From Trametopsis cervina (lineage: Eukaryota > Basidiomycota > Agaricomycetes > Polyporales > Irpicaceae), in the NCBI GenBank assembly GCA_022385755.1, contig MU278348.1:469035-533034 (forward strand): a stretch of DNA of 64,000 nt, read 5' to 3'. Each line of letters opens with the position of its first letter. Positions within the stretch are counted from its first letter, which is position 1. Both the position numbers and the translations under genes were made by a program. A model generated the notes under the pieces. That model worked only from the letters and a program-made list of their open reading frames with translations. It made no database searches and was not told the origin of the DNA. Shown piece by piece: positions 13,733-31,860 of this stretch.

Positions 13733-15038
13733 ATGGTCAGTGTCCCTCTCGCAAAGTACGAGATCTCACCGCGATGTTTGCTGATCTCGCATCCGCCTCC
13801 AGGATAACTTCATCAAACTCGGAAAGGAATTCTTGGAGAGCCGCAGCCACGAGAATGTGAGCGAGCAGCCCCAGGGCTCCGGCGAAGGTATGTTTCGAGC
13901 CGCGTGTTGTGCACGTTGTGGTAGTGAATGCTGATCTTGCGCGATGCTGCAGGAGGAGGATTCGGCGTCCAAGGCGGACATCAGTACAACTCGCCTGATA
14001 ACCGCCCTCCTGCTGGGTACCAACAAGGCGGCTCTGGAGGCTACGGCGGCGGTCAGCAGGGCTATGAAGGACAAGGACAAGGTTATGGCGGTGGTCAAGG
14101 TCAGCAGGGCTACGGCGGTGGACAGGGACAGGGACAGGGCTACGGCAGCGATCAAGGTCAGCAAGGATACGGCGGTGGTCAAGGCCAGCAAGGCTACGGC
14201 GGCGGTCAAGGTCAGCAGGGCTATGGCGGCGGTCAAGGGCAACAGGGCTACGGTGGTGGTCAAGGTTATGGTGGTCAAGGTGGTCAAGGTCAGGGCTACG
14301 GTGGAGGCGGCTCAGACCGCCCTCAATGTACGTATCTTCCCCAGCACAGATCGCGCATGATGCTCAAAGAACTTGCTTGTTGTTAGTCAACCAGGACGAG
14401 GTCGTCAACAAGGCCGCTCAAGAGGGATCAGGAGATCGTTCGATGTTCTCCAACGCCCTTGGTTTCCTCAACAACAACCACGTACGTCATTGACCGCAGT
14501 CATCTTTCGTCATGTATCACTGATGAGATGACCCCAGGACGAGCACAATCGTCCGGTCGACGAGGAGCACGTCACCGCCGCTCACCAGCAGGCGTACAGC
14601 AATGGCAACGCATCCAGCCTGAGCGCAAGCTCTATGGGTAGCGCAGCTGCTATGCAGGTACGTGATAGCGTCGACTTCATCACATCGCAGCGCTGATGAA
14701 TGACGTATATAGGTGCTGAAGAGCTTCACCAGTGGTGGTGGCAGCAGCGGCGGAGGAGGCTCGCAGACGCAGCTCATCAGTCTTGCGATGGCTGAGGCGA
14801 CGAAGCTGTTCGATGGCGCCGGCGGCGCTTCTTCTGGCAACAAGCAGGACGCTGTCAACAGCGCTGCTATGACCGTCATGAAGCTCTTGGTGCAGTCCAA
14901 GTTCAGCGGAACGACTGGAGGCGGCAACAGTGGTGGTCTGGGAAGCCTCATCGGCATGGTACGTTGACTCTTCTTCCTCGTCGGGTGAACCGGGGCTGAT
15001 GAATGCGTGATCCCTTGTAGGCAAGCAAGTTCATGTAA
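13733..15038 (+). CDS. beta-flanking gene protein (DUF7721-type), intact copy
   Basis: Seven exons: 13733-13735 (only the ATG), 13803-13887, 13953-14327, 14387-14481, 14538-14657, 14713-14958 and 15021-15038. The protein starts M-DNFIKLGKEFLESR and continues with a ~110-residue Gly/Tyr/Gln tract of GYGGGQGQQ units. It ends in a conserved alpha-helical domain: QDEVVNKAAQ, DRSMFSNALGFLNNN, a DEHNRPVDEEHVTAAHQQAY segment, SQTQLISLAMAEATKLFDGA, NSAAMTVMKLLVQSKF and the terminal ASKFM. This matches my recollection of the basidiomycete beta-flanking gene beside the HD mating locus; its biochemical function is unknown. Exons 3 (end) to 7 and the 3' flank are repeated in inverted orientation at 24.6-25.7 kb. 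Confidence 0.85.
14036..14300 (+). repeat. in-frame minisatellite encoding GYGGGQGQQ units
   Basis: About nine 27-30-nt units lie in tandem inside exon 3 of the beta-flanking gene. They encode GYGGGQGQQ with variants (GYEGQGQ, GYGSDQGQQ, GQGYGGQGG). All units keep frame. The composition resembles prion-like low-complexity sequence. Confidence 0.85.
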
Positions 15039-15423
15039 ATCTGATTCAGGGAACAGACTGTAAAGCATCAGGACACTGCTATATTGTAAAGTAGAGAGAT
15101 TGAATCCAATGCTGGTGTACAAGCGTATTGCTTCACGACGTGTCGGCGCCGTGCGGAGCGTATGTGGTGTTGATCTGCGTCGGTAGAGAGCACGGGCAGT
15201 AGATGTGATTCCAGCGAGTTGTCGTTCTAACTGCAGCAATCACGCTGGACGGGAGCAGAGTAAAGAAGACGATGACAGGTATACTGCGCTTGGACCAAGG
15301 TTTTGTCACTCTTGCGAGCATCTTCCAGTAGTTCTTGCGATGGTTGACGAGCATAGTATAGTGCACCAAAAGCACAGTTTCGCTATTCTTGCAAGGACTT
15401 CCAGTAGTTCTTGCGATGGCCGG
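14300..15423 (+). repeat. inverted duplication, copy 1 (beta-flanking gene 3' half plus 3' flank)
   Basis: This segment, from the last Gln/Gly repeat unit through exons 4-7 and about 385 nt of 3' flank, recurs in opposite orientation at about 24598-25716. Coding parts look close to 90% identical by eye, and introns and flank are clearly alignable. The left edge lies within the GQ repeat and is uncertain by about 15 nt. The right edge is near the second short direct repeat. Confidence 0.85.
15311..15419 (+). repeat. pair of short direct repeats in 3' flank
   Basis: Two ~32-nt units, 15311-15343 and 15388-15419, share the core TCCAGTAGTTCTTGCGATGG. A degraded version of both is present in the inverted copy near 24605-24710, so the pair predates the duplication. 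Confidence 0.7.
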
Positions 15424-17837
15424 CGCATTTGCTAGAGTTCAAACCGACGGGTTGCACGAGGGAACCTGGATTGTGCGTAGAAGAGGCTTGATTCGGTTAC
15501 GCGGAGTCTTGCATCGACCTAGGCGGTCAGAAGACGATGACATTTAGGAGGTCCTGATATTTATTCGTTAGACATGAGCATAGAGGCTGCCCGTACTTAA
15601 CAGCGCGAGAGCTGCACGGTTTATGCGTTCCTATAGACCTGATAAGTCCAATACAGCCAGGAGAGCAGACGAATGATATACGATGGCCAACTCGTATTTC
15701 GTGGGTTTGGGCGAGGAGGGCAAGGACGGTTAGAATCGTGCTCTGGGATTCAACAGACTCCCAAGACCAGAGAACGGGATTGGAACCGGGTCTTCGTCGG
15801 GGGTACCACCAAGGGTCGTATATTGCAGGCACGCCTCGCACGGCTAGCGACGGCAATAGACATGGTCAAAGCTCCAGTAGTCGGGCAGATAGGGAATGTC
15901 GGCGTGCGAGGGCAGTGCAGTATGCATCTCGCGTTAGTCTTTGGAGACAAGATCGCCGTGGTGCAAGAGGTAGGAGTCCAAGAGACGGAGATGTGGACAG
16001 AGTAAGGATATTCCCGGCCGATACCGATCAGAGAGAGCGTCGGTGACTCCTTCCTTTCCTGGTCGGGTAGGCCGCTGCCTCTTGACCTTTTGCCCCCATG
16101 TCCACTGCCTGTATCGCCAGCAACTGCTCGCTATCCATTGCGCTTTCTATGCATTTTCCTGCTCGCACCCGGGAGGTACGACAAATCGACTCGGCCGCAT
16201 CGCGCCCTCTGCAGGCGCGTTCGCGCTAATAATGCCACCGAAGGGTGGCGACCAATGGGGACTTGAAAGGGGTAGACGGAGTGCCCGGGACAGTTCAATC
16301 CTCCGAGGGTCCGTATGTGTCGTTGTGGGTGCCGCCAGCCCGTCCCGCGAAGGAGATTAGCTTAACAATTCAGCCTCCCTGCAGCAGCGTGTCGCACAAA
16401 CGCGCATTGGGGATGCTCTAGCTTGACAAGCCATGTGCCCACCAACGAATCACCCTAGATCTCGCATATGTCGCCCGGTGGAGAATGCGTTTCCTCCTGC
16501 AGGTGATGGCGACGTTGCGCTAGCAGCTCTCGAATCATGCGCGATCGCGAGCTAGCGTTTCGCCAGCATCTCGAAGATGTCCTGGGGACCTTCGTGGTCT
16601 CGTGGCGTGGCGATTGCTCGGGAGGCGAGGCAGCTGAATCGCTTTTTGCAGGCACCTTTTGCTAGGATGTCCGGATAGTCAATGCTGCGCCCCATCAGTA
16701 CGGTGATGCACTAAACGCGACTGTCATGCATGGATGACGCACAGAGGCATGTACAAATGGTGATCTTGTGGCTGAAGCCATATCACGCAGCTCGCCAGAA
16801 ACCGTATGGGACTCGGCAAAATTACGGACAGGACCTCGCACCTTGCGTGCCGTAGGGGCCTGGGCAAGTGCAGCACCAGAGGACTCTCGCTCGTCGTTCG
16901 AGCCATTCTGATCTCTCTTGCCCATCAGCGTGCATCGCGCTGGCATCTCGAGAAGGAACTGCCTCGCACCGTGTTGCGGCTGGGTCTGCTGGTGCCCGCG
17001 ATCTGCCATCAGCCCAATCTTGGCTGCCGCTTTTCTGCCAACGCAACCCCGATCAGGCGAAAAGTGCGACCAAACATCTACGAATCGGGCTCCACTCGGC
17101 GTTGCGTGTCGCTTCCTAGACCGGGAAGGCGTGGCTTGGGCGAGAGATGGTGGCTTCGGTGAAGATTCGAGGGTGCTCTTTGCCTTCGTGTTGCCGTCTC
17201 TCGGCTGTGACGACCTGCATTTCGCCCCTTCGAACAGTGCGTTTCCGCCTGCGCACTTACTCACGCCGAGTCATTCGACCTAAGCAGAGCCGCCTGACAC
17301 ACCGTTTCGTGCACTGCTCTAGGCGCACGTCCCCAGGAATGGCCGGCAGCCAACCACGATCGCCGAAAGGACGTAAAAGTCTGGTCATCCCCACGCCCTC
17401 CTTCCGTTTGCGGCGGCTTTGGAAATCACTGCTCAAATGCGCCTAACCACCTTTAAAAACCTGCTCTCGTCACGCTCTGCGCTGCACGTTTTGTCGAATT
17501 CCTCCGTTTGTCCAGGGGTAGTGAGGTGGCGAGTCGGCCAGCGTTACATATCGTGTCACTGGCTCGTCGAAAAGGCACACCAATTTCTGTGAACAAGGCT
17601 TCATCTCGCTGCCAGTTCGGCCCCACTGCCCCGAAATCTCTTGCTGTCTGCTGTTGCTGCTGATCCTTCACGTTCCTTTGCACATCTTCGGCCTGATATC
17701 CGGCCGCTCGGTACCCTCCTTTGGGTCTCTAATCTGACCTTCACCTTCGCCTCTTTTCCAGCCCGTCGTCGCTCGTTAACTCTCTTGCCTTCACCGTCTC
17801 TGTTGGGGGTCGCCAAACGACCTCTACCGTCCGTTGG
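15424..17837. other. gene-poor region, no supported gene
   Basis: About 2.4 kb without convincing coding sequence. A 189-codon minus-strand frame at 16695-17264 overlaps frames of similar length on the other strand and shows no family resemblance. The last 350 nt are CT-rich and probably lead into the gene at 17838. Confidence 0.5.
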
Positions 17838-18498
17838 ATGACTCCCGGCGGCATGTCCTCAAGCACTCCAGAACGCAGTCCGTCGCGGTTGGGCAGCAAC
17901 GTACAGGCTCAACCGTCCCAACAGCTCCCGCCCACCAACCGTCTGCCCAGCTATCGTTCGTCATACTGCGGGCGATACCATCCATATGGACGCCGCGTGC
18001 CCCGTCATGGCCCTCCGATAGACTTGATGGTGCGTGCTCCTCGGCCTCTGTGTCACCCTCTGGGTAGCAATGTATTCACGGCTGTCCATACCCATTTCTA
18101 ATACAGAAAACAATCGATGCTCGGTGTGAGAGCAACAGGGCGAGTATATCCTTGGTAAACACATTCATTACGCACCCTCCTCGTGTCATCTACTAACCCA
18201 TGCGCAGTCTGTGGTGGATGAGGAGGATGAGGAAGAGCTAGACGAAGAGGAGGAGCTCACCGAGCCTCGCGGGGATAGCGATGGTAGTCACCAGCTCTCT
18301 GTGCCTCACGCCAACAAAGCCATGCTGGTGAGGCGCAGGAGCTTTACGGACCTCGTCGTCGTACGTTTTCTGTATTCTCGTCACGAACGTTAACGCTTAC
18401 GTAAACCCGCCTCTTCCTCTCTCCAGGATCTCGCCTTCGCCATGCGCCGCAGCCTGCATTGGAAACGACAGAAATTGAAATTTGTGAAAGACTGCTGA
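17838..18498 (+). CDS. small unrecognised protein with acidic stretch and basic C-terminus
   Basis: Four exons with in-phase joins: 17838-18029, a short exon reading KTIDARCESNRASISL, an exon opening SVVDEEDEEELDEEEELTE, and the last ending at 18498. The protein is about 155 aa. It has a Ser/Pro/Gln-rich N-terminus, an acidic run, then NKAMLVRRRSFTDLV and DLAFAMRRSLHWKRQKLKFV at the C-terminus. I do not recognise the family. The RRRSF motif could be a kinase-site-like or nuclear signal, but that is speculation. Clean splice sites at all three introns and a conserved-looking C-terminal block argue that it is real. It lies between the beta-flanking gene and the HD genes, a stretch often free of other genes in mushrooms. 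Confidence 0.65.
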
Positions 18499-19857
18499 AG
18501 GCCGTTGGACGTGCGGCAGCCAACCAACCCGCGTCCGCCGTCGATCGAAAGAAAGAGCGAACAGTTGTCCGATTGCCTTCCTCGAAAATTCTGCTCCGAC
18601 ATATATCAACGTTCATGTACATGATGACCCCTTTTCCATATTTCCGATCCCCGCACCCACCTCACCGTACATATCACCCCTCCACGTCCGCCCCTCCCCA
18701 TTTCGGTTCATGCACACCTTCGGGGCAAATTCTCTCGAAGACGTGCTGTATTATACGTTTGGTCGTTCGGCATGCATGCAGATGCGCCTTCTGGTATCAT
18801 ACACTTTCTGCTCATACATCACCGAATAGATCCTAGAGATAGACTAGGTAGTGCAAATACGGTTTTCGGCATGGGTGCTGTAGATGTAGCAGTGCCTGAT
18901 GGACCTTGTGCCGTTTGCGGACAATACGATTTTGATTTGGCGTTGATGGTGGGACGGGCACCTCAGACGTCCGACAGTACTCCAAAGGAGCCTCAGCAAG
19001 GCAGGTGTTGCTGTGTGGTCGTAAGCTGGTGCACGAGCTCTCGGTGTAGTGCCTGAAGTGTAACGCAATAAAAATCAAACTTAAGTATGAGAGCTAACCC
19101 CTGCTTGATCTGCCACGGTGGTACTGATCAGAGTTTTACACTGGAGATTCGATTTCAGTTATAAACCAGGCGACATGCACTACAGTTGTAGGTTTATTAA
19201 ACTCGGAAGCGGTCTTCATGAAGAAGCTTATCTGAAGACAGACTGAGAAACGTTTGTTCATTAAAATTTTCCGCAGTACTAATATTACCTCTTCCAAATT
19301 CGCGATGATGGAACTCAGGAAGGGTTGAACGATCTAAGATTTTAAGACTTGCGTGTATGAAATCACTGAGTGATGCCAGGAGGGTGTGACGCCCGGGCAT
19401 ACCATAATGATATAACTCCACAGTTACGCATACATAGATGACTGCACACACTAAGTGACCGGACATTAATGCACTGGTCGTGAACAATGGCCACCAGTGA
19501 CTGCTTATTGTCGTGGCAAGAGCAACTACAGGTACCGGTATCCAACGGCCCGCACACAGGATGTCCAAATACACACAAATAAAGGCCGCTAAAGGCGCCG
19601 GCGGACAATGCACAATATCAAGTGCGCCCGACTTCGGTATTTGTTCACGGTGTGGGTTCCATCATTAGTAAATATGTTCAAGCGCAAATTATTATTGAAT
19701 TAAAACATAGAGCCTTCTACCGTTACAATCTTGAGACGAAAATTATTACACAACCGATGACACAGATGCAATACATGAACACATGGATAAGAAACTTGGG
19801 CAGAGCGGAGACCGCTAACACTTCAGGCTTTGGTGCCGTGGCCGTTGGTAATAAGTC
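18499..19857. other. intergenic region, no gene seen
   Basis: About 1.36 kb, partly AT-rich (19060-19350, 19660-19860). Only short overlapping frames without resemblance to known families. Confidence 0.5.
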
Positions 19858-20290
19858 TTAATCCCTGTCAGACTTCTGCATGATCTCGAGGAAGATCTCG
19901 TACCCACGCCTACGACCGTTCACTGCCTCCATGTTGGCTCTTAATGCCTCGAAGTAGAAGCCTTCGATGGCAGTGCGAAGTTCTTTGTAGTATTCGTCTA
20001 TCCGTACTTGATCAGCACCAGCATTTGGAAAGATAGAGACTGCACTTACACTGATAGACCTTGGACTCATTAACATCCTGGGCATTGCCGTAGAACTTGG
20101 CGATAGACTGACGCAAGTTCCAGACATCTTCGGGATTCATATCCACGACGCTCCTATAGGGTTCCTCGTGGCGGCGGCTGAGGTAGTGGTTGCGAACGTA
20201 GAGGGCGCCGATGGTGTCTGGACTGGCTCGGATGGAGGACCTGCCGCGAGATTCGTTGGAATCCAGCAACGAATCAGAGTGGATCGACAT
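19858..20290 (-). CDS. small unrecognised protein (129 aa)
   Basis: Two exons, 20290-20050 and 20006-19858, join in phase with a consensus GTAAGT donor. The protein starts MSIHSDSLLDSNESRGRSS, then contains IGALYVRNHYLSRRHEEPYR, NPEDVWNLRQSIAKFYGNAQ and a helical tail with EYYKELRTAIEGFYFEALRA and GYEIFLEIMQKSDRD. It looks soluble, mixed helical and charged, with no signal peptide. I recognise no family. The acceptor is CAAG rather than the usual CAG/TAG with a pyrimidine tract. It sits inside the inverted-repeat-bounded segment near HD1, but any role in mating is unsupported. Confidence 0.6.
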
Positions 20291-23137
20291 CTCGAGAGGA
20301 GGGTAGAGGCGTGAAGAAATAAGGAAAAGGAGATAACAAGTAATGAGCGCAGGAGGGGCTTGCTACTGCTGGACGAGGTAGAGACTCACCGCCTTTTATA
20401 TTACGAAGAGAGTTGTTGGCCACAGACTGTGGCCAGGTCACGAGACTTGAGGCTGCGCGTTGACATCCTTTGTCGCCATCATACACGAGGCGCATATCAG
20501 CTCTGGCGCAGATACCAGTCGCAAAGCATCCTTTGTCCGGCAGCCAGTCGCTTTCAAAGCGCCGGCGCGGCTGTGCTGTCCGTGGCCACCTACGCCACTT
20601 TGGTAATCATACTTCAGCACCTGCACAGAGGATAGCTGACTTGGCATAGCAGGAACGCACTTCATCTCATCAAAGACACCGATAGAGCGTGGCCATTTGA
20701 ATGCGCCATTGAGATGCATGCCGACGAGACGATCTGCATTTGACACTTTGTGGCTATGGCCGTCCTGAAGGCTCGTCCGTGACGGCACCCATATTCACTG
20801 GGATAGATAGCCGGGTGGCACAGAGTGTAACGGGCCAGGGAACCCTGTTCAAATGCATACCCAAGCCCTCCTCGACGCCGCGTGTGCAGCGCCACCGCCA
20901 ACGAGTGCTATGGCCACCCCCGCTCGGGCGACTGCAAGGAAGCGCCGTGTCAGCCGTAATGACCGCTAGCAGGTGGCGTTGGCCTTTTCGATATGCTTAG
21001 TCTTAGGGTTATTTATCACAGAGGATCGTATTACGCTGAAAAAGTTCATAATTACACCTTCAACAATATCTATTAGAGTAGTAGCAACGTGGTACAAAAG
21101 ATAGCTTACGATTACTACTAAGAAGCCTCGCGCCCGTCGGGAAAGTAACCGAATAATTACCACCATATCGCAGTAGTCTGGCAGCTATGAAGGCTCAGAT
21201 CATCTGCCGATCACGCCAGACATTGAGCCGATTGTGAGGTTTATTGTGATGGTCGGCTGCAGGAACATCGACTATACGAAGAAACTCTGTTCAGTAGAAC
21301 GTGCGTATTATGAAAGCACGAGCACCCGAAGAATGGCTTGTAGGAAACGCGTCTTGCAAGTGGTCGCATAGTAGAGAGATCAAAGACATGCAAAGCTCAG
21401 ATATTATAGCTGCGAATGGCGTCGTCCACCGAGTGATTGATCTCCAGAAGGGCAGAAGGACAAGCCGTCATCGGAACCACAGTCAGACGAGATGGCCAGA
21501 GCAAGAGTTGGATCTTCTGAGCCATCCACCCCGGAAATCATAGCAGTGCGAAAGGACCAAGTGTAAAGCGAGAGTATGTCAGCCTTCCGAGCAAGAAAGT
21601 CTCAAGTTGTCGCCAGACCCATACGCAGCAGAGAAGACGTTTGCGCCTGACAATCTGGAGTCTATACACAGCCTCGTCAGACCACTTACCTCATACGCCT
21701 GAGCTCTACGTCCAGGGAACTGCGGATTTGTGGGTATACCTGAGCCGGCATATCGCAAACGGATCTAACAGACGGAGTGAGCAACATCCACCGTAAGACG
21801 AATCTGGTTTAACGCACCCTGTGATTATCAACGATCCCATCGCGTCAAGCAGCACCTCGTCCCGGAGCCTTCGCTGAGCTCGGCACTGAGGCAACTTGAA
21901 CCCTTCACAACAGCGTACCACACACCCCGTCTTGGGACGAGGAACAGTGACCGTAGTTGCCGCCGAGAACAAACAATCCTAACACAAAGCAGATTAGCGT
22001 AGGGGGCGGGAAAGGAACAACGCACGATCCGGACCCACAAACGGATCGATTACAAGAGAGAACAAGCACCGTCCTCCGAAAAGGCAAGAGGCCGCCGTCG
22101 ATCCTTGGTGCACACAGGACCACACCGTGCTATCCCGAGGTATCGTCCTTGTACTTTCGCGCCCCGCCATCAATGCCGTTGACTACGCTCCGTCGACATA
22201 GGACTCGTCGGGAGGCGACACGAGACTAGTTGGGCGGAGAGTAGCAGGAGTACCAGATATCCGTGTTTCGGTGAATGCTGAGTTGCTAATTTCCCCTTGT
22301 CTCTGCAGGGAAAGGTGGAATGCGAGATTTCACTGTCCGCAGTGGCTTCATCGATTTGGCGTATTTAAGCAGCTCTTTCCATGGATTGTTCTCTCTCACT
22401 ATCACACTTCTATTCCTCCCACTTCTGCATCTGCTAACTTCTTCTTGCACTGGTCGATACGTCACACTTCGAAATCAAGCACGATAGCGACTGAGGCGAC
22501 GATGTCTTCTGGTCTTCGGAGCTCTCGTGCGATATCTTGCGTTGTGTTTTGTCTTCTCTGGGCTTCTCTTGACAGCTGAGGCTAGTGTGTGCGAGGTCCG
22601 GACTGGAACAACGAGAAAGCGTGGAATTGGGCGCGAGCACTACAAACTGATATACAATAAGGATAGGAATAAATATCCAGGGAGAAAGGTGTGGATGTTG
22701 GGAGTTCGGGGGATGCGTAAGTGTTCAATGTGCGTGTGTTGGTTGGTTTGGATGTGTGATTAGGGTATGCGCTGTGGGACGTGATGGTAAGAAACCTATG
22801 AGTGTGAAAATGAGGTGAGTGTAACAATCTATATGAGTACACGGAGCATCAAACGGAAGAATTTGAGCAGGAGGGGAGTAAAAACGAAAGAAAACATATG
22901 AAAAGCGAGATAAAGAAGCAGAGATGGAGAGTAAAAGGAGTCGAGAACATGCAGATGGAGAAAGAAAGCGAAAAAGCGTAGCTGTGCGGGTATATGGTAC
23001 GTCTTGAAAAATGATGTGCGAGGGAAAGCGTTGACTAGAACTTTGGAGAGCGGCGATCAGAAAGGTGATGATGTGAGTGAGGTGTTATGATCTATGACAA
23101 CATGAGATTGCAGCTACTGATACACAGAAGGCGACAC
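20291..23137. other. gene-poor region downstream of the HD1 remnant
   Basis: About 2.85 kb with no supported gene. At 22520-22770 a frame encodes a signal-peptide-like stretch but opens with GTG instead of ATG. From about 22850 to 22985 the plus strand is strongly purine-rich (GA-rich), possibly 3' flank of the minus-strand HD1 remnant. Confidence 0.5.
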
Positions 23138-24585
23138 TCACGCGTTGGTTTCGATGTTCAAGAGGCTGGCACCCGACGATGATAGCTGAGACAGCAGGCC
23201 CTGCGATGATGGGGTGAATTGGTGCGTTGATGCCGACTGCGACACGTCGAATAGCGGCGAGAGGGTAGGCTCCTCCGAGGAGCCAAACAAATCTTCTGCC
23301 CAGGAAGCCACATCGTCCGGGGAAAGGGATATGTCACATGTGGGAACCACAGGCAGCTGCAGCATATTTTCCGTGTCCAGCGCCAGCGCGGAAGGAGGAA
23401 CATCGATAGCAGCTGCCTTATTGCCAAGCTCTGGGAATTCAGGAATGGCGAATGCGGCAGAATTTGTAATGGAAGCAAACAGCTCGTCAAGTTCCTGACT
23501 GTGTCGTGTGAGTGGTTGGGGCTGTGAGACGATGATAAGTCCATATATTTTGCAACCATGGTATGATAACTGACCTCGGTCTCAGTAGAGACAAAGGTAG
23601 TAACTGCGTCTGTTAGAGTATTGCCTATAGTGTTCACAGGCACATTCACAGTACAGACTAAAGAAGCGGTTAGCTATTGAAGCCTACGGGAGACGATGCA
23701 GACGTACGAGGAGTGACTGTAGTCAAAGTCTCTTGCAAGCCGCTGAAGTCGTGGAAATAGCAGTCAACCGACCCCAAGGCCTCAATGCCGTCATTGGTTG
23801 ACGACAAGTCGGGCACAGGCAAGAGCTCCTTTGCAAAGTCCGCGAAGAATTTATCGACGTCGAAGATAGTGGTGGAATCTTCGGCCTGCACATACGTGGA
23901 AGGAAGGGGAGCGGAGACTGCCTGATGTCTACGTGCACCCGGCTTGGGCAAGCTACGAACGGACCGCGCCTTCTTAGACGCAGCTGGGTAGGCCTCTGTA
24001 GCGGAGAGACGGCGCTTCCTAGACAAACGAGGTGGTTCAACCGTGGAAACGTTAACGGGCGCTACCTCAACGTTCCCACGTGCATCAAATCCCACGAGGA
24101 TATCGAAGGGCGAAAGAGGCATTTGCGGCGCGAGGTCCTGCGGGTCGAAGACAGAATCAAAGGAGTCTTCGTTACAATCCCAGTCTTGATATGGCCCGTT
24201 TCCAGAAATATCATAACGCGGGTACCTGTAAGGCGAGCGTTCAGTAGTGGAAGAGGTCAACGTAACCGAGGGATTCGACCGTAGAGTCTTTCGTGAGCTC
24301 CGAGAGTTGCTTGGTGGCTCCGGCAAGTAAAGTTGAGAGCGGATCTGGGAGCTTCTCGTCATCTTCGCTATCATCGAGGTCAAAGACAAGAGATGGCATG
24401 CGCGAGGTCGTCGAGCTCGGGGTAGATGGCGCCGTCGTCAAATTCGAATGGGAGATGTCGTTCAGTGACGAAAATGGGGAAGGTGACAGTAGACCGTCTC
24501 CTGCACTGGAGGGCGATGCGAGGCTATCAATGGTAAACGATGTGATGCTCGGTGCCACTGTGACAGGCAAGTCTTCAGAAGACAT
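23138..24585 (-). pseudogene. HD1 homeodomain transcription factor, detached C-terminal half (no homeodomain)
   Basis: Exons 24585-24267, 24184-23708, 23657-23575 and 23521-23138 keep frame throughout and give 420 aa from ATG 24585 (MSSEDLPVTVAPSITSF). Features are Ser/Pro/acidic segments (SLVFDLDDSEDDEKLPDPLS), a bipartite nuclear-localisation-like block LSRKRRLSATEAYPAASKKA followed by GARRHQAVSAPLP, and an acidic/Ser-rich tail ending LLNIETNA. The NLS-plus-AVSxPLP arrangement is, from memory, typical of the C-terminal half of mushroom HD1 mating proteins. No homeodomain precedes it; the sequence upstream of the ATG is the inserted beta-flanking duplicate. The first intron is the least certain (donor GTTACG, acceptor CAAG). 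It is called a fragment because its N-terminal half is displaced, although the frame itself is open and could be translated. Confidence 0.75.
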
Positions 24586-24597
24586 GTTGACCTCAAG

Positions 24598-25716
24598 TCC
24601 TCGAAAGAACCACTGGGAGATGCCTCCAAGAATAACGAAGCTCTGGTTTTGGTGCGCTATACCTATGTTCGCCAGCTATCGCAAGAACTACCGGAAGATG
24701 CCCGCAAGAGTGACAAAACCTTGGTCCAAGTGCACTATGCTTGTCCTCGTCTTCTCTACTCTGCAGCAGCGTGATTCCTGCAGTCAGAACGACAGCTCGC
24801 TTGAATTGCATCTACTGCCTGTGCTCTCTGCCAACGCAGATCAACATCACATACACTTCGCACAGCGCCGACACATCGCGAAGCAATATGTTTGTACACT
24901 AGCATTGGATTCGATTTCTCTAATTTACAATATAGCAGTGTCCTGATGCTTTACAGTTCGTTCCCTGAACCAGATTTACATGAATTTGCTTGCCTACAAG
25001 ATACCACGCATTCATCAATCCCGGTACATCTGACGAGGAACAAGAGTCAACGTACCATGCCAATAAGGCTACCCGGTCCGCCGCTGTTACCGCCGCCAGT
25101 AGTTCCGCTGAACTTGGACTGCACCAAGAGCTTCATGACGGTCATGGCGGCACTGTTGACAGCGTCCTGCTTGTTGCCGGAAGAGGCACCGCCAGCGCCG
25201 TCGAACAGCTTTGACGCCTCAGCCATCGCAAGACTGATGAGCTGCGTCTGCGAACCTCCCCCGCCGGTGGAGCTCTTCAACACCTATATGCGTCGTGGGT
25301 TAGCGCTACGATGTGATGGGTAGTCGACGGATGCACGTACTTGCATAGCGGCTGCGCTGCCCATAGAGCTTGCGCTCAGGCTGGATGCGTTGCCATTGCT
25401 GTACGCCTGCTGGTGGGCGGCGGTGACGTGCTCCTCGTCGACGGGGCGGTTGTGCTCGTCCTGGGGTCATCTCATCAGCGATACATGGCGAATGGGAACC
25501 TCGGTCAGCGACGCACGTGGTTGTTGTTGAGGAAGTCGAGAGCAGAGGAGAAGAGCGAGCGATCTCCTGATCCCTCCTGTGCGGCCTTGTTGACGACTTC
25601 GTCCTGGTCAACTAACAACAAGCGACCTCTTTGAGCACCATGCGCGATCTGTCCTGAGGAAGATACTTACATTGAGGGCGGTCTGGGCCGCCTCCGCCGT
25701 GGCCCTGACCTTGCTG
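24598..25716 (-). repeat. inverted duplication, copy 2 (inserted within HD1)
   Basis: This is the reverse-oriented counterpart of 14300-15423. It begins, on the minus strand, within the Gln/Gly repeat (CAGCAAGGTCAGGGC), runs through beta-flanking exons with all donor and acceptor sites kept, and ends about 13 nt before the ATG of the HD1 C-terminal fragment. One six-codon difference in the penultimate exon and scattered, mostly third-position, changes separate it from copy 1. It occupies the place where the HD1 homeodomain should be. Confidence 0.85.
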
Positions 25717-26034
25717 GGTAGGTATATGATCTTCATCAATATCATCCACAGACAGTCCGGCCAATACGGATTGTATTTCATCGTGAAACGAGGCGGTGAG
25801 CCTGTTGGTTTCATCTTCAAGGTCGGCAATGGAGTCGCCAAGCAATGCGACTCTATATATCACAGCAAAGATAGCCGAAATCTCGTCGTCACTAATAGTA
25901 GATTGAAGTTTGGCCTCTTCGAAAGCTGAGCAAAGTGTAGCCCATTTATCGCCAAAGGCCTGTAATGCTGGAGGGTCGGAAAGGATGGCCAAAAAGGTGG
26001 CTTCTGCGTCGTGAAAACGTTCTAACAACGACAT
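24976..26034 (-). CDS. chimeric gene: HD1 N-terminal segment fused to beta-flanking (DUF7721) C-terminal domain
   Basis: Exons 26034-25671, 25611-25517, 25460-25341, 25283-25056 and 24993-24976 give 274 aa with every phase consistent. Residues 1-~106 (MSLLERFHDAEATFLAIL, PALQAFGDKWATLCSAFEEA, VALLGDSIADLEDETNRLTA, SVDDIDEDHIPT) have the layout of the HD1 N-terminal dimerisation/specificity region. They run without a stop into QQGQGHGGGGPDRPQ and then the beta-flanking C-terminal helical domain (FDQDEVVNKAAQ, SQTQLISLAMAEASKLFDGA, MKLLVQSKF, terminal ASKFM). The exon sizes of 95, 120 and 18 nt equal those of the intact copy; the 228-nt exon is six codons shorter. The gene is divergent from HD2, as HD1 normally is. 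Whether it is expressed, and whether it can still pair with HD2 proteins, is unknown. Confidence 0.8.
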
Positions 26035-26765
26035 TGAGGTAGAGGAGTGTGGGATGGTTGAGTTTGCCCCAGCTCGGCGACCAGGGGAAGATATATATGA
26101 ACATAGTCTCTGTAGCTGACCATATAAGGGAACGGATGACAGTCGATCCGATTACTGATATATGATATGAACAATGCCTCACTAGTCTCGTACCCAGACG
26201 TCAAGGTGGTGGCCGGTCGCACTGCTCCCGGGGGTGTCTCAAAAAGGAAAGAGATATGGGGACGAGAATGAGACAGCGACACCACCTCACCCCCAGTCTC
26301 GATCCAGACGTTTGACCGTATGTGGTGATTTCTCCTTTCGGACGAGGGCGATGGCTAATGGGAGAAGGGAAGTCCTATAGTGGTTCTTCCTTGGGCGCTA
26401 GCCGTCCTGATCCGAAGGGGAAATGACCACGAGCGGGAGCCCCGGCGACCGCAACCACTAGGACGTCTGGTTCGAGACTACTCACCCCCGACGTTGTTTT
26501 GTTCTCCTCCCCGTCTCAACTTCCCAGTCCGGAGCGGAGCGACGGGCCGGGGGCCTGAGGCTGGGAACGAGGGGCTCGGCGTCAAGTGCCAATGATTGGT
26601 TGATGACTATTTGGTGGGCTTACATAACCAGTTGACAGTTCGAACTTCGAACAATGTTTACTTATCGCCCACGATTCGCACGCTCACCACGGCTGAGGTC
26701 TCTTATATGCCGCAGGACGCTGTTTGGACGCCCCCTGTCCTGCCCCTGGAAGCTACGCTATAGCG
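26035..26765. promoter_or_regulatory. divergent promoter region of the HD1-derived chimera and HD2
   Basis: The 731-nt spacer separates the two divergent starts, the usual arrangement of an HD1/HD2 pair. It contains TATATATG-like sequence near 26087 on the chimera side and CCAAT/ATTGG half-sites back to back at 26589-26599 on the HD2 side. No gene lies within it. Confidence 0.6.
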
Positions 26766-28471
26766 ATGTCCCCTGCTATGCTGAAGAGCATTCTCGCTCA
26801 CGGCTCTCATCTGCTTAGTCGATTGGGCAACCACTCTCACTCTTCTCATACAACGATCAGTCATGCGCCGTATCAATTACCAGAGCCTCGAGAAATTGTA
26901 ACCGATCTCACCCGTATTGGATGGCCTTTGGTCACCGCAGCAAGAATATCACAACTATATATCGAAAGTGCTGTCGGAATGAAACAGGAATATGAGCATC
27001 ATATAGAGACTGCCACACGAGCTTACATCAACGTTTCCTCTGACGAAGACACAGAGCAAAAATTGGCTCAAATGCGCTCAGTATACTTAGCTTGCTATAT
27101 TCGTCTTTTACAAGACTGGGGTCGTACCATCACATCCCGTTCCGAACGACATCTACCAGCTGTTCAGTCCCCTGCAATGGAGCATCGCCATACTAGCAAC
27201 AAGGCCTCGTCTCATCAGGTTAGCATAATTTCATGCTGATTATTGCAGCCGCCTCATCTCAAAGTCATCATAGGAATCCACTCGAGTCCTGGAAATAGCC
27301 TTTCGCTCCAATCCATATCCTAGTCGAAATGACAAGTTGGCATTAGCCAAAGAGGCCCGCATGGATTACAAACAGGTGCACACATGGGTATGCCGTTTAT
27401 GTTTATGTCGTACATGTCACTTCTGTACTTATACCCGTATAGTTCCAAAATCGCCGTAATCGATCTAAGCGAGATGGTGAGGACCTACGGAGATTGACGT
27501 TCGTCAAAGACGAGGGGTTGTCCCCTACTGCTACAAGCATGTCCCATGATATGTTGGCTATGGATGAGAACTCTGAGTATATCGCGGTGCGTTTATCATC
27601 CTCACATCCTCGTGTAAAGCGAGGACTGACGTTTTGTCCATAACAGAGCATCGAGGTTCAGACACCTACTCCACGAGATGATTCGCATCCTTTTGAACTT
27701 CACATTGCTCCCCACGCTTTTCCATCTCCGTTTCCTCCGTGCTGCGACTATGCTTCAATCCATGCACCGAGCCAAGTGCGATTCGAGACAATATGGCCGC
27801 GATATCCTTCCACCGGAAATCATACCCTGCCTTCCTCGTCAGACAGTGTAGACAGTCTTGCCTCTTCGTTGGCGAGTCTGGTTCTTGAGGACGTTATGGA
27901 GAAGCCACGATCCCCTCTGAACTGCCTAAATACTAGAAGCAAATATAGGACGTCCCAGACATCCTCTGCTTGTTTCCCTTCTGCCGTTTATCCGCCTTCT
28001 GCTCCTCTTTCGGCTCTCGTCCAGGGCGTCAAAGACGTGCGTGGCAGACGAAGTTCTATTCTACAGAAAGCCGCGTCCGTCAAAGGACCTTCCAGCAGCA
28101 AGTCCAACTCCATTGCATCTGCCCGCCATCAACAAAGCACAAGGGCGCGATCATCCCTCCCTCTTCGCGTCCCGAAATCCATGCCTAAACTCGTACGCGA
28201 GTGCACCCATCCCTATTCAGATCGCTCAGAATCGCGGTCAAAAGTCAAGCGCCTCTCCTCCTGTTCCTCGTTATCGTCCATATCTTCCGACAGCAGCTTC
28301 TCTTCCATCGACTCCCTATTTACACCTCCGTCTTCACCAAGAGCTCTTACACCTCAAACCAAGCAGTCCGTCGATTTCATATTCGAACCAATAATTCGTG
28401 ATTTCAATGATTCTCAAATACCACGAGTCTCTCTAGAAGAGGGACTACAAATGAACTGGGATACATATTAG
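26766..28471 (+). CDS. HD2 homeodomain mating-type transcription factor
   Basis: Exons 26766-27218, 27274-27387, 27443-27586 and 27647-28471 give 511 aa. The start MSPAMLKSILAHGSHLLSRL is the first in-frame ATG; the frame extends upstream only through non-ATG codons. Residues ~1-150 are helical and form the presumed dimerisation region. The homeodomain follows at about 155-205: VLEIAFRSNPYPSRNDKLAL, then VHTWFQNRRNRSKRDGED, keeping the W, F, N and R of helix 3. The third-helix TW/FQN codons are split by an intron, as often seen in HD2 genes. The long tail is Ser/Pro-rich with basic patches. HD2 proteins act by forming heterodimers with HD1 proteins of another mating type to control sexual development. 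Here the same-locus HD1 partner is disrupted. Confidence 0.93.
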
Positions 28472-28954
28472 GCTTTCAACTCCTCTTCTTGCTGCATTGG
28501 TACGCCATCGCTTTCGTCCACTTTTGCTCACTGTTTCTCTTTTCCTCCCCGGATCTTCCTCCGCGCTGTCGTAAGCCTATTTTGCTCTGCATCTACTTCC
28601 TTTGCTTTTTGCACCACCAGTATATCCTCATTTCCCCGTGTATCCTTATTGTTCTATTTATCAGCTATCGTATATTGTAGTATAGTATAATTCTCCGTAG
28701 TGGCTCCGTTGACAGGTTGGTGAGGGCACAATGAACAATGGTTGATGTTTGTTGACTGGGTCACAAACCCCGTTCCCACGATAACCAAGTTGAAGATACA
28801 AGATCAAAACCCTTTTCCGCAACGTGTCAAGAATTCGAACGTCTGATACGAAGATCCGAACAAACCCTGTCGCGAACCTCGAGACAATGGACAATACAGT
28901 AGGAGTGATTGTCCTGCGTGAATACAATATCGAACCACCAGCGGGTACCGCAGT

Positions 28955-31444
28955 TCAGTGTCTTCCGGGTACAGATACCTCGTCCTCAATCTTCCACCGT
29001 CCGACCTCAGCCATAGCCTCTGCGTCCCCACTCTCCATTTCAGGTGCGTCCAACAGTGCACTAACCATCTTCCAAGGATCCCTGCCTCCTCCGTATCTTA
29101 GCACCTCATTCTTGTACTTCTCCCCTGTCTCCCTATTCAATGGATCGTGTGCGAATAGTTTGCGCCATACCCGCGAGGCGATGGCTCGATCAAACAGGTA
29201 CGAATAGTATGTGGCTCCGTATCCAAACAGGTGTCCGAATTGCGTTTGCCATGAGGTGCCGGGTACGTAAGGGATCAGTCCGCGAGCCTCATACAGCTGT
29301 GCAAGAGCAGCCGTAGAGTCGAAATTGGGAGAGAGCACAGCCGGAGAGTGGTATCTCTGGTCCAGAGCGGCCAAAAGAATTTGGGTATGCGTGTCAATCG
29401 CCTTGCAAGGATCCTCGTGGTTGTTACCCGATTGTCGAACGGGTAGTTCGCCAGACAGGTCGAAAAGTGAGAGGACGGTAGGTGAGTTGAGGAAGTGTTC
29501 CATAAGAATCGATGGGAGCTCGACAAAGTCCGTTGCACAGCGTGTTCCGGAAACATTCTGGTACTCTGTCCGGCCAATCATGGCTGTGGGGAATGAATGA
29601 GCTCTAGATCTATGATATATCAGAGTAAAGACAGACTTACAATGCATAGCGTGACCCATTTCATGGAACAACGTTAGCACTTCATGCCAGGCCAGGATTG
29701 TAGGCCCTCTGTTGATCGTTGGACGAGTAAATTCGCACAGTAGCACAACTACTGGGAGCTGAAACACGCCGTCCACGCCTCGTATGCGCGCCCTGTGCGC
29801 CACCTCGAACTCGTTTGACAGTGACATAGCCCCAAGGACCGCCTCGTCATCGACACCTGCCAGATCACGGTGTTCATCGTCGTCATCTGTCCTTCTCGAA
29901 CATCGGACGGTGTAGTGGGCTGCACCGCTTGGCTTTCCGCGCCTAGAAAAAAGGTCGGCGTAGATCCACCCTATCACTCCCGATTGTTCATCCACAACTT
30001 CTAGCTTCCGAACGTCAGAGTGCCAGACTTCACCCGGGGCAACGTCTGTTAACCTCAGCGTGATGCCGTATAGGTTTCGGAAGAGTCGGGACAATCCCAT
30101 GAAGACGGTACCGAGGGTTAGTGGAGGAAGTGATACCGGTGGGGCGGGGGGTTCGGGCGGACAATAGTAATCCCTATCCCATGCCTGTATCGTCGGGAAG
30201 GGAGATGTATTGAGATGCTCTTGTTTTCGCAAGCTAAGCGATTTCAATGCTTGCCGAGCGTAAGGACGGGTGTGGTCCATCAAGGCCTCCAGAAAGTGCA
30301 CAACATTCTCTACTTGATATCAGCAACATGCACAAGCAGTTGAGTGAGAGTACGTACCAGGAGATTTGGCCATCTTATCAGTCAAGGTCATGTGTGCAAA
30401 ACTCTCCTTTCCGACCAGTCGGGCAAGCTCTCCGCGAGCATGCAGGAGGCTCTCTAATGTCTCTATTTGCTCTGGGGTACTCGAATTAGCAGCCATATAT
30501 ACTTTTCGTCTTGGCTCCTCTTCCGGGGCAGAATGCATTATCATCTGAGCTTGTAGAGATCCGGGGTATACCACTAGGTCTCGAAACTGTGCTTGTAACC
30601 GTAACCGAGGTCCCATAGTCTTGTCCTTCAAGCCCTTCAGCTCCGAAGGCTTGATGACGGCAGGCGGTCGTGCGCTCGACGTTTCGTTCAGAAACTGCCG
30701 ACCAAGATGTAGGATCTCGGAGGAGAGGGACACGAACTTCGTCCGCTGTGCGGGAGGAAGATTGATGCCCGACTTCTCGAAGTCTCTCCAGAATATCATG
30801 GCCGTCTCGCGTGCCTCTGGACCAAGAGAACGGGATATCTCCGGGTCAGTTAAGACCTCCTCGAGCACCTACGAGAATAGATTGAATATTGTAGTACAGT
30901 ACATGACCGCAGTGGTACGCACATGATAAAGCTCGACATGCGTGTTTAGGACATTCATGAACTCGCACATCTTCTCGTATACATGCTCCGCGCTTTGTAT
31001 CCAAACAGAGTCCGGGTGCGCATTTCTGACCAATTCTGCCAAGTCTATGACACCACATAGCAAGTCGCTGAGCCTGTCCAGGTGCTTCACCACCTTGAAC
31101 AACTCATCGCGCGACTCCCTTGCCCGCACAATCCTCTGTGTCAACAACTCTGCCCTGTGCAAAGTTGAATCTGCCAGCTCGATGAACGCCAGAGGGGTCG
31201 TTAAAAAGCCATGCCCAAACAGCCCCGTAGGGGTGAGGTTTGCCGACCGTCGTCCCGCCTGGGGCATATCGAAATCTGCTATGATGTCTGCATCGTCGGG
31301 AGACGCCGATGCTGTAGAGCTGAGTGTCGTGGCATGTCTCGACACCGCCTCGAGGGCCTGTTTCTTCGCATTGAGGCAGCCTCTGAATCGAAAGGTGGGC
31401 CTTGAGGACGATGCAAGCGCATTCCTGGCAGAGCGCGCGAACAT
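28955..31444 (-). CDS. mip: mitochondrial intermediate peptidase (M3 metallopeptidase)
   Basis: Exons 31444-30923, 30868-30358, 30309-29641 and 29583-28955 give 776 aa, normal for fungal MIP/Oct1. The N-terminus ([20 protein letters not shown]) is Arg/Ser/Ala-rich like a mitochondrial presequence. The zinc site is HEMGHAMH (HExxH), and the downstream metal-ligand region is [32 protein letters not shown] and [16 protein letters not shown] are also characteristic of the family. The enzyme removes an octapeptide from imported precursors after the first processing step, in the matrix. An intron interrupts just after [11 protein letters not shown] is the classical marker next to the mushroom A (HD) locus; here it lies tail to tail with HD2, with about 480 nt between the two stop codons. 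Confidence 0.96.
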
Positions 31445-31860
31445 AAATCTGTGAAGAGGGGAGGAGTTGAGTGTAGCACGACAAACTTGTTAATGGGCGG
31501 CTACGAAGTATGAGCACCCCATCAAAGATTCTAACGAGTTAGCGGCAATCACCGAGCCACTAAGGTGTTTTCCATTCTGGTGCACAGTTTGGCGTTGAGT
31601 TTGAACCTGCCAGCCAGTTTGATGGACGAGCCACGCCCGCAGAAATTGAGACAGCACGCGGACTAGTGGGCGTTGTTTTCCACGATTAGCTCTGCATGCT
31701 AGCAGGTGAGTATACATTGCTTTGGATGCGACCTACTCTAGAGAATCAACGAGATGAACTATGCAGGATGACCACGAAGAAGGTAAGATTGCGATGCAAG
31801 AATGGCAGGGAAAAGCAAGAATCGGGACCAGTAAAAATGTATGAATCGGTGGAAAATAGT
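31445..31860. other. intergenic region, MIP promoter
   Basis: About 416 nt between the DDT/WHIM gene's 3' end and the MIP start, both on the minus strand. No coding sequence seen. Confidence 0.6.

Follow-up and report, generated by a model that had tools for sequence, protein, structure and literature searches.

A presumed HD1 mating-type gene of Trametopsis cervina continued in frame by an inverted copy of its beta-flanking gene

The beta-flanking gene (beta-fg) has traditionally served as a marker for the HD locus and been regarded as a bystander there. Schizophyllum A-alpha-1 reportedly lacks its HD1 (Z) gene, and self-compatible Coprinus cinereus reportedly carries a chimeric homeodomain protein in which two HD proteins are fused and development is activated (Kues et al. 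1994, EMBO J). The gene set of MIP, HD1/HD2 and beta-fg is described in several Agaricomycetes (PMC8305134); most known basidiomycetes have HD1 as the immediate neighbour of MIP (PMC3140503). The MAT locus of Agaricus bisporus contains two beta-fg copies (PMC8305134; PMC10051438), and the beta-fg alleles of this species are highly differentiated (PMC8305134). HD haplotypes without one particular HD gene are reported for Hypsizygus marmoreus, whose haplotypes all retain at least HD1.1 and HD2.2 (PMC8686365), and for matA3 of Flammulina velutipes (PMC3140503). Within the C. cinerea pair, the homeodomain of HD1 is dispensable, HD1 carries the NLS and the activation domain, and the homeodomain of HD2 is required (PMC4915694). 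In Amanita phalloides, NLS peptides are encoded by HD1 only, and models suggest N-terminal pairing (PMC10598064).

The window analysed here is a stretch of 64 kb from the wood-decay fungus Trametopsis cervina (contig MU278348.1, positions 469,035 to 533,034 of the forward strand), and its setting is the HD (A) mating-type locus of this species (MIP - HD1/HD2 - beta-fg). Its strain is probably CIRM-BRFM 1824, which appears among the taxa of one comparative paper (PMC8955403). As at the HD locus of other Agaricomycetes, a divergent HD pair lies between MIP and beta-fg; unlike at the usual locus, the presumed HD1 gene is split by an inverted copy of beta-fg and its homeodomain is absent. A second beta-fg copy accompanied by structural rearrangements is shared with the MAT locus of A. 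bisporus. There, however, each copy stands as a gene of its own next to the HD genes, with none described as lying within an HD gene or fused to one in the accessible parts of those papers, whereas the T. cervina copy is fused into the presumed HD1. In the Coprinus cinereus chimera, likewise, an HD mating protein is fused in frame with another protein of the locus; the fusion there reportedly unites two HD proteins, whereas in T. cervina HD1-type sequence runs into an unrelated DUF7721 protein and has neither homeodomain nor NLS nor activation domain. With H. marmoreus and F. velutipes matA3 the locus shares a haplotype that is missing a particular HD gene, the absence of a gene being what those reports describe and a gene fusion being what is found here. 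No HD::beta-fg fusion was found in the accessible parts of the literature on HD genes, beta-fg, fusions and Trametopsis, a body of text in which subscription journals are little covered.

Along the window, the genes follow in the order beta-fg (+), C-terminal half of the presumed HD1 (-), beta-fg copy (-), N-terminal segment of the presumed HD1 (-), HD2 (+) and a Peptidase_M3 gene (-). The original beta-fg lies at 13733..15038 on the plus strand and comprises seven exons encoding 313 aa. Between it and the C-terminal half, over ~8 kb (15.5-23 kb), the longest single-exon frame is at most 189 aa. The presumed HD1 and HD2 are divergent, with start codons at 26034 and 26766, 732 bp apart, which delimit an intergenic region at 26035..26765. 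The matched part of the Peptidase_M3 gene (29012..30538, minus strand; matches at C1:498046-499572, C1 being the contig of the window) was named MIP-type from its family and position. This gene adjoins HD2 and not the presumed HD1, in contrast to most known basidiomycetes, in which MIP stands beside HD1 (PMC3140503); the HD pair may be inverted relative to the usual MIP-HD1 order (window 26035-31489). Beyond the window end by ~5-8 kb, two homeobox genes of general type lie on the minus strand at ~C1:538.1 and 540.5 kb. Elsewhere in the assembly, a second Peptidase_M3 gene was seen at C36:98501-100183, and matches to STE3 pheromone receptors correspond to ~4 genes, all off the contig of the HD locus (three at C15:490440-511542 and one at C11:583239-584202).

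The fusion itself begins with the N-terminal segment of the presumed HD1 (25714..26034, minus strand), an open frame of ~106 aa that is presumed to be the HD2-pairing region; its start codon is at 26034 and residue 106 ends at 25717. An in-frame fusion of this segment to beta-fg had been claimed in a first-pass annotation, and splicing and translation confirmed it: the chimera (24976..26034, minus strand; exons 26034-25671, 25611-25517, 25460-25341, 25283-25056 and 24993-24976) encodes 274 aa with zero internal stops and the terminus ASKFM, and its four introns are GT-AG (GTAAGT..TGTTAG, GTGCGT..CCCCAG, GTACGT..ATATAG and GTACGT..TTGTAG). Residues 123-203, encoded by exons 2-4 (25254..25609, minus strand), match DUF7721 (Pfam PF24845) at 92.1 bits, over a cut-off of 27, as expected from the DUF7721 tail proposed earlier; the original beta-fg scores 97.5 bits. 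The N-terminus of beta-fg (MDNFIKLG.. and Gly-rich repeats) is absent from the chimera, and HD1-type sequence stands in its place. The same fusion has been deposited as a hypothetical protein (BDW22DRAFT_1349847; 100% identity over 98% of the chimera). This model agrees letter for letter up to the last intron but does not splice it out, and therefore counts 271 aa instead of 274. Among the 120 matches listed of 371, the HD1 part is covered by one only (P0001), the other 119 covering 47-67% of the query.

The identity of residues 1-106 was approached through profiles, homologues, predicted structure and position. Against the Pfam profile Mating_N, whose cut-off is 21.4 bits, residues 7-83 scored 15.7 (E 0.016), and the match was reproduced by none of eight shuffles of the segment. 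When the whole genome was scanned with Mating_N, the sole match listed was a frame on contig C13 (19.3 bits), and the N-terminal segment was absent; the C13 frame, which we take to be GCIP/cyclin-D-binding-like, was set aside as an unrelated match. Against the T. cervina genome, the segment matched its own locus only. AlphaFold predicted four helices (residues 3-16, 21-43, 49-70 and 74-92), with a mean pLDDT per 10-residue block of 82-89 over residues 1-60 and 52-56 over residues 71-90; the alignment behind this model was composed of beta-fg proteins, so that the N-terminal end was modelled with no true relatives to guide it. The three-residue TALE homeodomain loop is the mark of HD1. The homeodomain of the neighbouring gene is without it, which makes the neighbour HD2 and, by elimination, its divergent partner HD1. 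In the first-pass annotation these residues had been assigned to HD1; the position beside an HD2-class gene sustains the assignment, while the Mating_N match stays under threshold and the segment found only itself among 212 candidate homologues. Taken together, position, the sub-threshold Mating_N match and the predicted helices make an HD1 identity likely, and we hold it very probable, mostly from position, that residues 1-106 are the N-terminus of HD1.

The HD2 gene (26766..28471, plus strand; exons 26766-27218, 27274-27387, 27443-27586 and 27647-28471) encodes 511 aa in an open frame with a full homeodomain match (27213-27472 with introns included, plus strand; PF00046, 50 bits, E 2.6e-13). 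Residues 150-199 align to positions 8-57 of the 57 positions of PF00046, 50 on 50, with no TALE loop. Across the whole genome, scans returned five matches to PF05920 and 16 to PF00046, and within the window only the HD2 homeodomain. The presence of an uninterrupted HD1 in the same haplotype had been named beforehand as the finding that would speak against the chimera; none was recognised in these homeobox scans of the assembly, in which 13 loci were read and judged by the general features of HD1, the weakest match (C13, 15.7 bits) being left out. A strong TALE match on C4 was rejected as a second HD1, as it sits deep in a serine-rich frame of 614 aa that is presumably a general TALE factor, and a weak homeobox match on C25 was rejected for having no WFxN motif. 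The loci on C3 and C6 and those at C1:538, 540, 775 and 1290-1291 kb were read as ordinary homeobox factors.

The beta-fg part of the chimera belongs to a longer duplicated block (24601..25713, minus strand), a 5'-truncated copy of 1113 bp that keeps its introns along with a 3' flank of 375 bp. BLASTN aligned it from 25713 to 24601 with the original copy (plus-strand positions 14285-15416; 975 identical columns among 1137 aligned, 85.75%; E 0.0), and a search of the T. cervina genome recovered the same duplicate, so that the proposed duplication and inverted insertion of beta-fg within the presumed HD1 holds at 85.75% identity on opposite strands. Homology sets in with the final Gly-rich unit in exon 3 and extends past the stop by 378 bases in the original and 375 in the copy. 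The rearranged gene had been placed at 24586 to 26034; the upper end stands, whereas the duplicated block ends at 24601, 375 bp beyond the last codon of the chimera at 24976, and 24586 itself lies one base away from 24585, where a second frame that has survived begins with its start codon. The copies differ at 14% of columns and hence did not arise by duplication of a single sequence during assembly. A DUF7721 profile search of the genome gave four exon matches at two places, the original and the chimera, and none elsewhere; as a lower bound, the assembly thus holds at least two DUF7721 genes. A Gly/Gln-rich minisatellite occupies 14057-14290 of the window, within exon 3 of the original beta-fg, with units ~80-86% alike. 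The duplicated block starts beside its last unit, which suggests that the repeat may have aided an ectopic exchange. The two copies also form inverted repeats of 1.1 kb, 9.2 kb apart (interval 15417-24600); recombination between them would flip this interval and move the C-terminal half of the presumed HD1 to the original beta-fg.

Downstream of the insert, a spliced frame that had been overlooked in the first reading is open from an ATG at 24585 (23138..24585, minus strand; exons 24585-24267, 24184-23708, 23657-23575 and 23494-23138). It encodes 411 aa, taken here as the surviving C-terminal half of the presumed HD1. Read from the translation, it contains a bipartite NLS-like basic stretch, RLSRKRR...SKKARSVR, at residues 159-183 (23955..24029, minus strand), which stands in a separate frame, after the stop of the chimera, and is not joined to the pairing domain. 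The homeodomain had been described as missing from this gene, and that description holds: when all three minus-strand frames across 23000-26050 were scanned against Pfam regardless of stops, no homeobox was found, only DUF7721 and weak matches to Cys_rich_CWC and Nucleoporin_N, and the whole-genome scans with PF05920 and PF00046 placed no TALE-type homeodomain at the presumed HD1 gene. Within the 411-aa half, no Pfam family scored over cut-off. Mating_C gave no match in a genome scan in which the control was silent too, and none was reported for this half. A deposited hypothetical protein of 447 aa (BDW22DRAFT_18363) overlaps the half, with a different start and no precomputed Pfam domain; this model was the only homologue among the 7996 candidates listed and scored, and its own locus was the sole match of the half in the T. 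cervina genome. We infer that the N- and C-terminal halves may once have been one HD1 gene, now divided into a pairing end and an end of NLS/activation type. Given that the NLS-like stretch lies apart in the C-terminal half and that the HD1 homeodomain of C. cinerea is dispensable, loss of DNA binding would probably be the lesser defect, and the greater one is probably that the pairing and NLS/activation ends are now apart. If the pattern of C. cinerea and A. phalloides applies, the split rather than the missing homeodomain would disable HD1.

A tree built from 20 rows of the DUF7721 part placed the two beta-fg copies as sisters (support 99/95), with branch lengths of 0.021 for the copy and 0.013 for the original, which indicates that the copy arose from the T. 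cervina lineage and parted from the original once that lineage had separated from the sampled relatives. Between the copies, dN was 0.033 and dS 0.47 (NG86), a dN/dS of 0.07; nine of 167 aligned residues differed, frame and splice sites were retained, and the single coding gap spans six codons. Noncoding differences between 14285-15416 and 24601-25713 amounted to 88 of 605 aligned positions (14.5%, or 0.16 corrected). It was also observed that the synonymous divergence far exceeds this corrected noncoding value. In neutral simulations that started from the original sequence at 7.3% change, half of the noncoding divergence, replacements averaged 26 and were never as few as nine (0 of 5000 runs); at 4% change, nine or fewer occurred in 8% of runs. 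Derived replacements at mostly conserved positions, judged by eye, numbered two or three in the copy (G to D and L to P, with F to S seen in one alignment only) and one in the original (S to N). These comparisons show the beta-fg part of the chimera to be constrained in sequence and not decaying. As the copy perhaps came from an already diverged beta-fg allele, this constraint may predate the insertion and need not be tied to the fusion.

We favour, at a probability of roughly 0.55, the reading that this is an HD1-defective haplotype which mates via HD2 and carries the fusion as a by-product or mild decoy. A DNA-mediated ectopic duplication of the 3' part of beta-fg, inverted and with introns and 3' flank retained, would have broken HD1, the homeodomain region being gone. 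The HD1 promoter would then drive a protein composed of the HD1 pairing domain and DUF7721. Without NLS, activation region or homeodomain, the chimera would make no working heterodimer; its product would at most bind a compatible HD2 unproductively, which would leave the haplotype HD1-defective. Fertility would be retained through the haplotype's own HD2, which could find its partner in the HD1 that a compatible mate contributes. The Hypsizygus haplotypes each keep an HD1 and an HD2, so that they offer no precedent for mating by HD2 only. Counting against a pure by-product, the C-terminal half is still open, and the dN/dS of 0.07 in the beta-fg part reflects more constraint than this reading predicts.

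The same constraint is what a selected mating-locus protein would lead one to expect, one whose HD1 pairing domain links HD2 to DUF7721, or which serves as a decoy lacking an NLS and keeps unpaired HD2 outside the nucleus. The replacement count that neutral runs at 7.3% never reached, the similar branch lengths of copy and original, and the preserved frame and splice sites with one six-codon gap are all in keeping with it. Set against these are the 8% of neutral runs that do reach this count at 4% change on the copy branch, the two or three replacements at mostly conserved positions in the copy against one in the original, and allelic divergence before the insertion, of the kind described in A. 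bisporus (PMC8305134), which could account for the constraint. We regard a selected protein of this kind as unlikely, and more doubtful still that it is a new mating-locus gene, with the HD1 recognition domain on beta-fg, selected as an allele-specific HD2-binding decoy or tether. A further step down in probability, and improbable in our view, is a decaying remnant, in which HD1 has been lost from mating (for example, in a species or strain not needing HD heterodimers) and both halves and the extra beta-fg are becoming pseudogenes. The split HD1, the missing homeodomain and the failure to recognise another HD1 among the homeobox loci read are as such a remnant would have them, but HD2 is open and has its homeodomain, the 411-aa half and the chimera are free of stops and frameshifts, and the beta-fg part is constrained.

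Under a cassette-splicing model, the beta-fg copy would be skipped in some transcripts and the N-terminus joined to the NLS/activation half, giving a homeodomain-less HD1 that would work as in Coprinopsis. The open C-terminal half, the dispensable homeodomain of C. cinerea HD1 (PMC4915694) and 13 frame-keeping donor/acceptor pairs from chimera donors to the C-terminal half, four of them from the first donor, are compatible with this; many in-frame pairs are expected by chance, however, no acceptor stands out, and the skipped interval of ~1.1 kb is long against chimera introns of 56-62 bp, so we consider such splicing very unlikely. We give least weight to a mis-joined contig, in which the beta-fg allele of a second nucleus was brought into HD1. 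Such alleles can diverge strongly (PMC8305134), yet two precise breaks ~1.1 kb apart would be required, the two halves flank the copy in the same orientation with the frame kept, and the copy is far from the ends of its contig of 2.69 Mb (assembly 29.4 Mb, 59 contigs), which makes a misjoin highly improbable.

On the favoured reading of an HD1-defective haplotype that mates via HD2, two such haplotypes should be mutually incompatible. In T. cervina the HD locus has been rearranged and bears a gene fusion, and there is a chance, which can be tested, that the fusion is a new functional protein. Beta-fg is now physically part of a presumed HD gene, its coding sequence open and constrained, and its inverted copies could seed inversions at the mating locus. 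The case offers a test of which part of HD1 is needed, the pairing end or the NLS/activation end, and of whether HD2 by itself suffices for a haplotype to mate. It also offers one of whether a recognition system can capture a flanking gene: if the fusion is a new mating-locus gene, a formerly bystander gene would take part in mating recognition.
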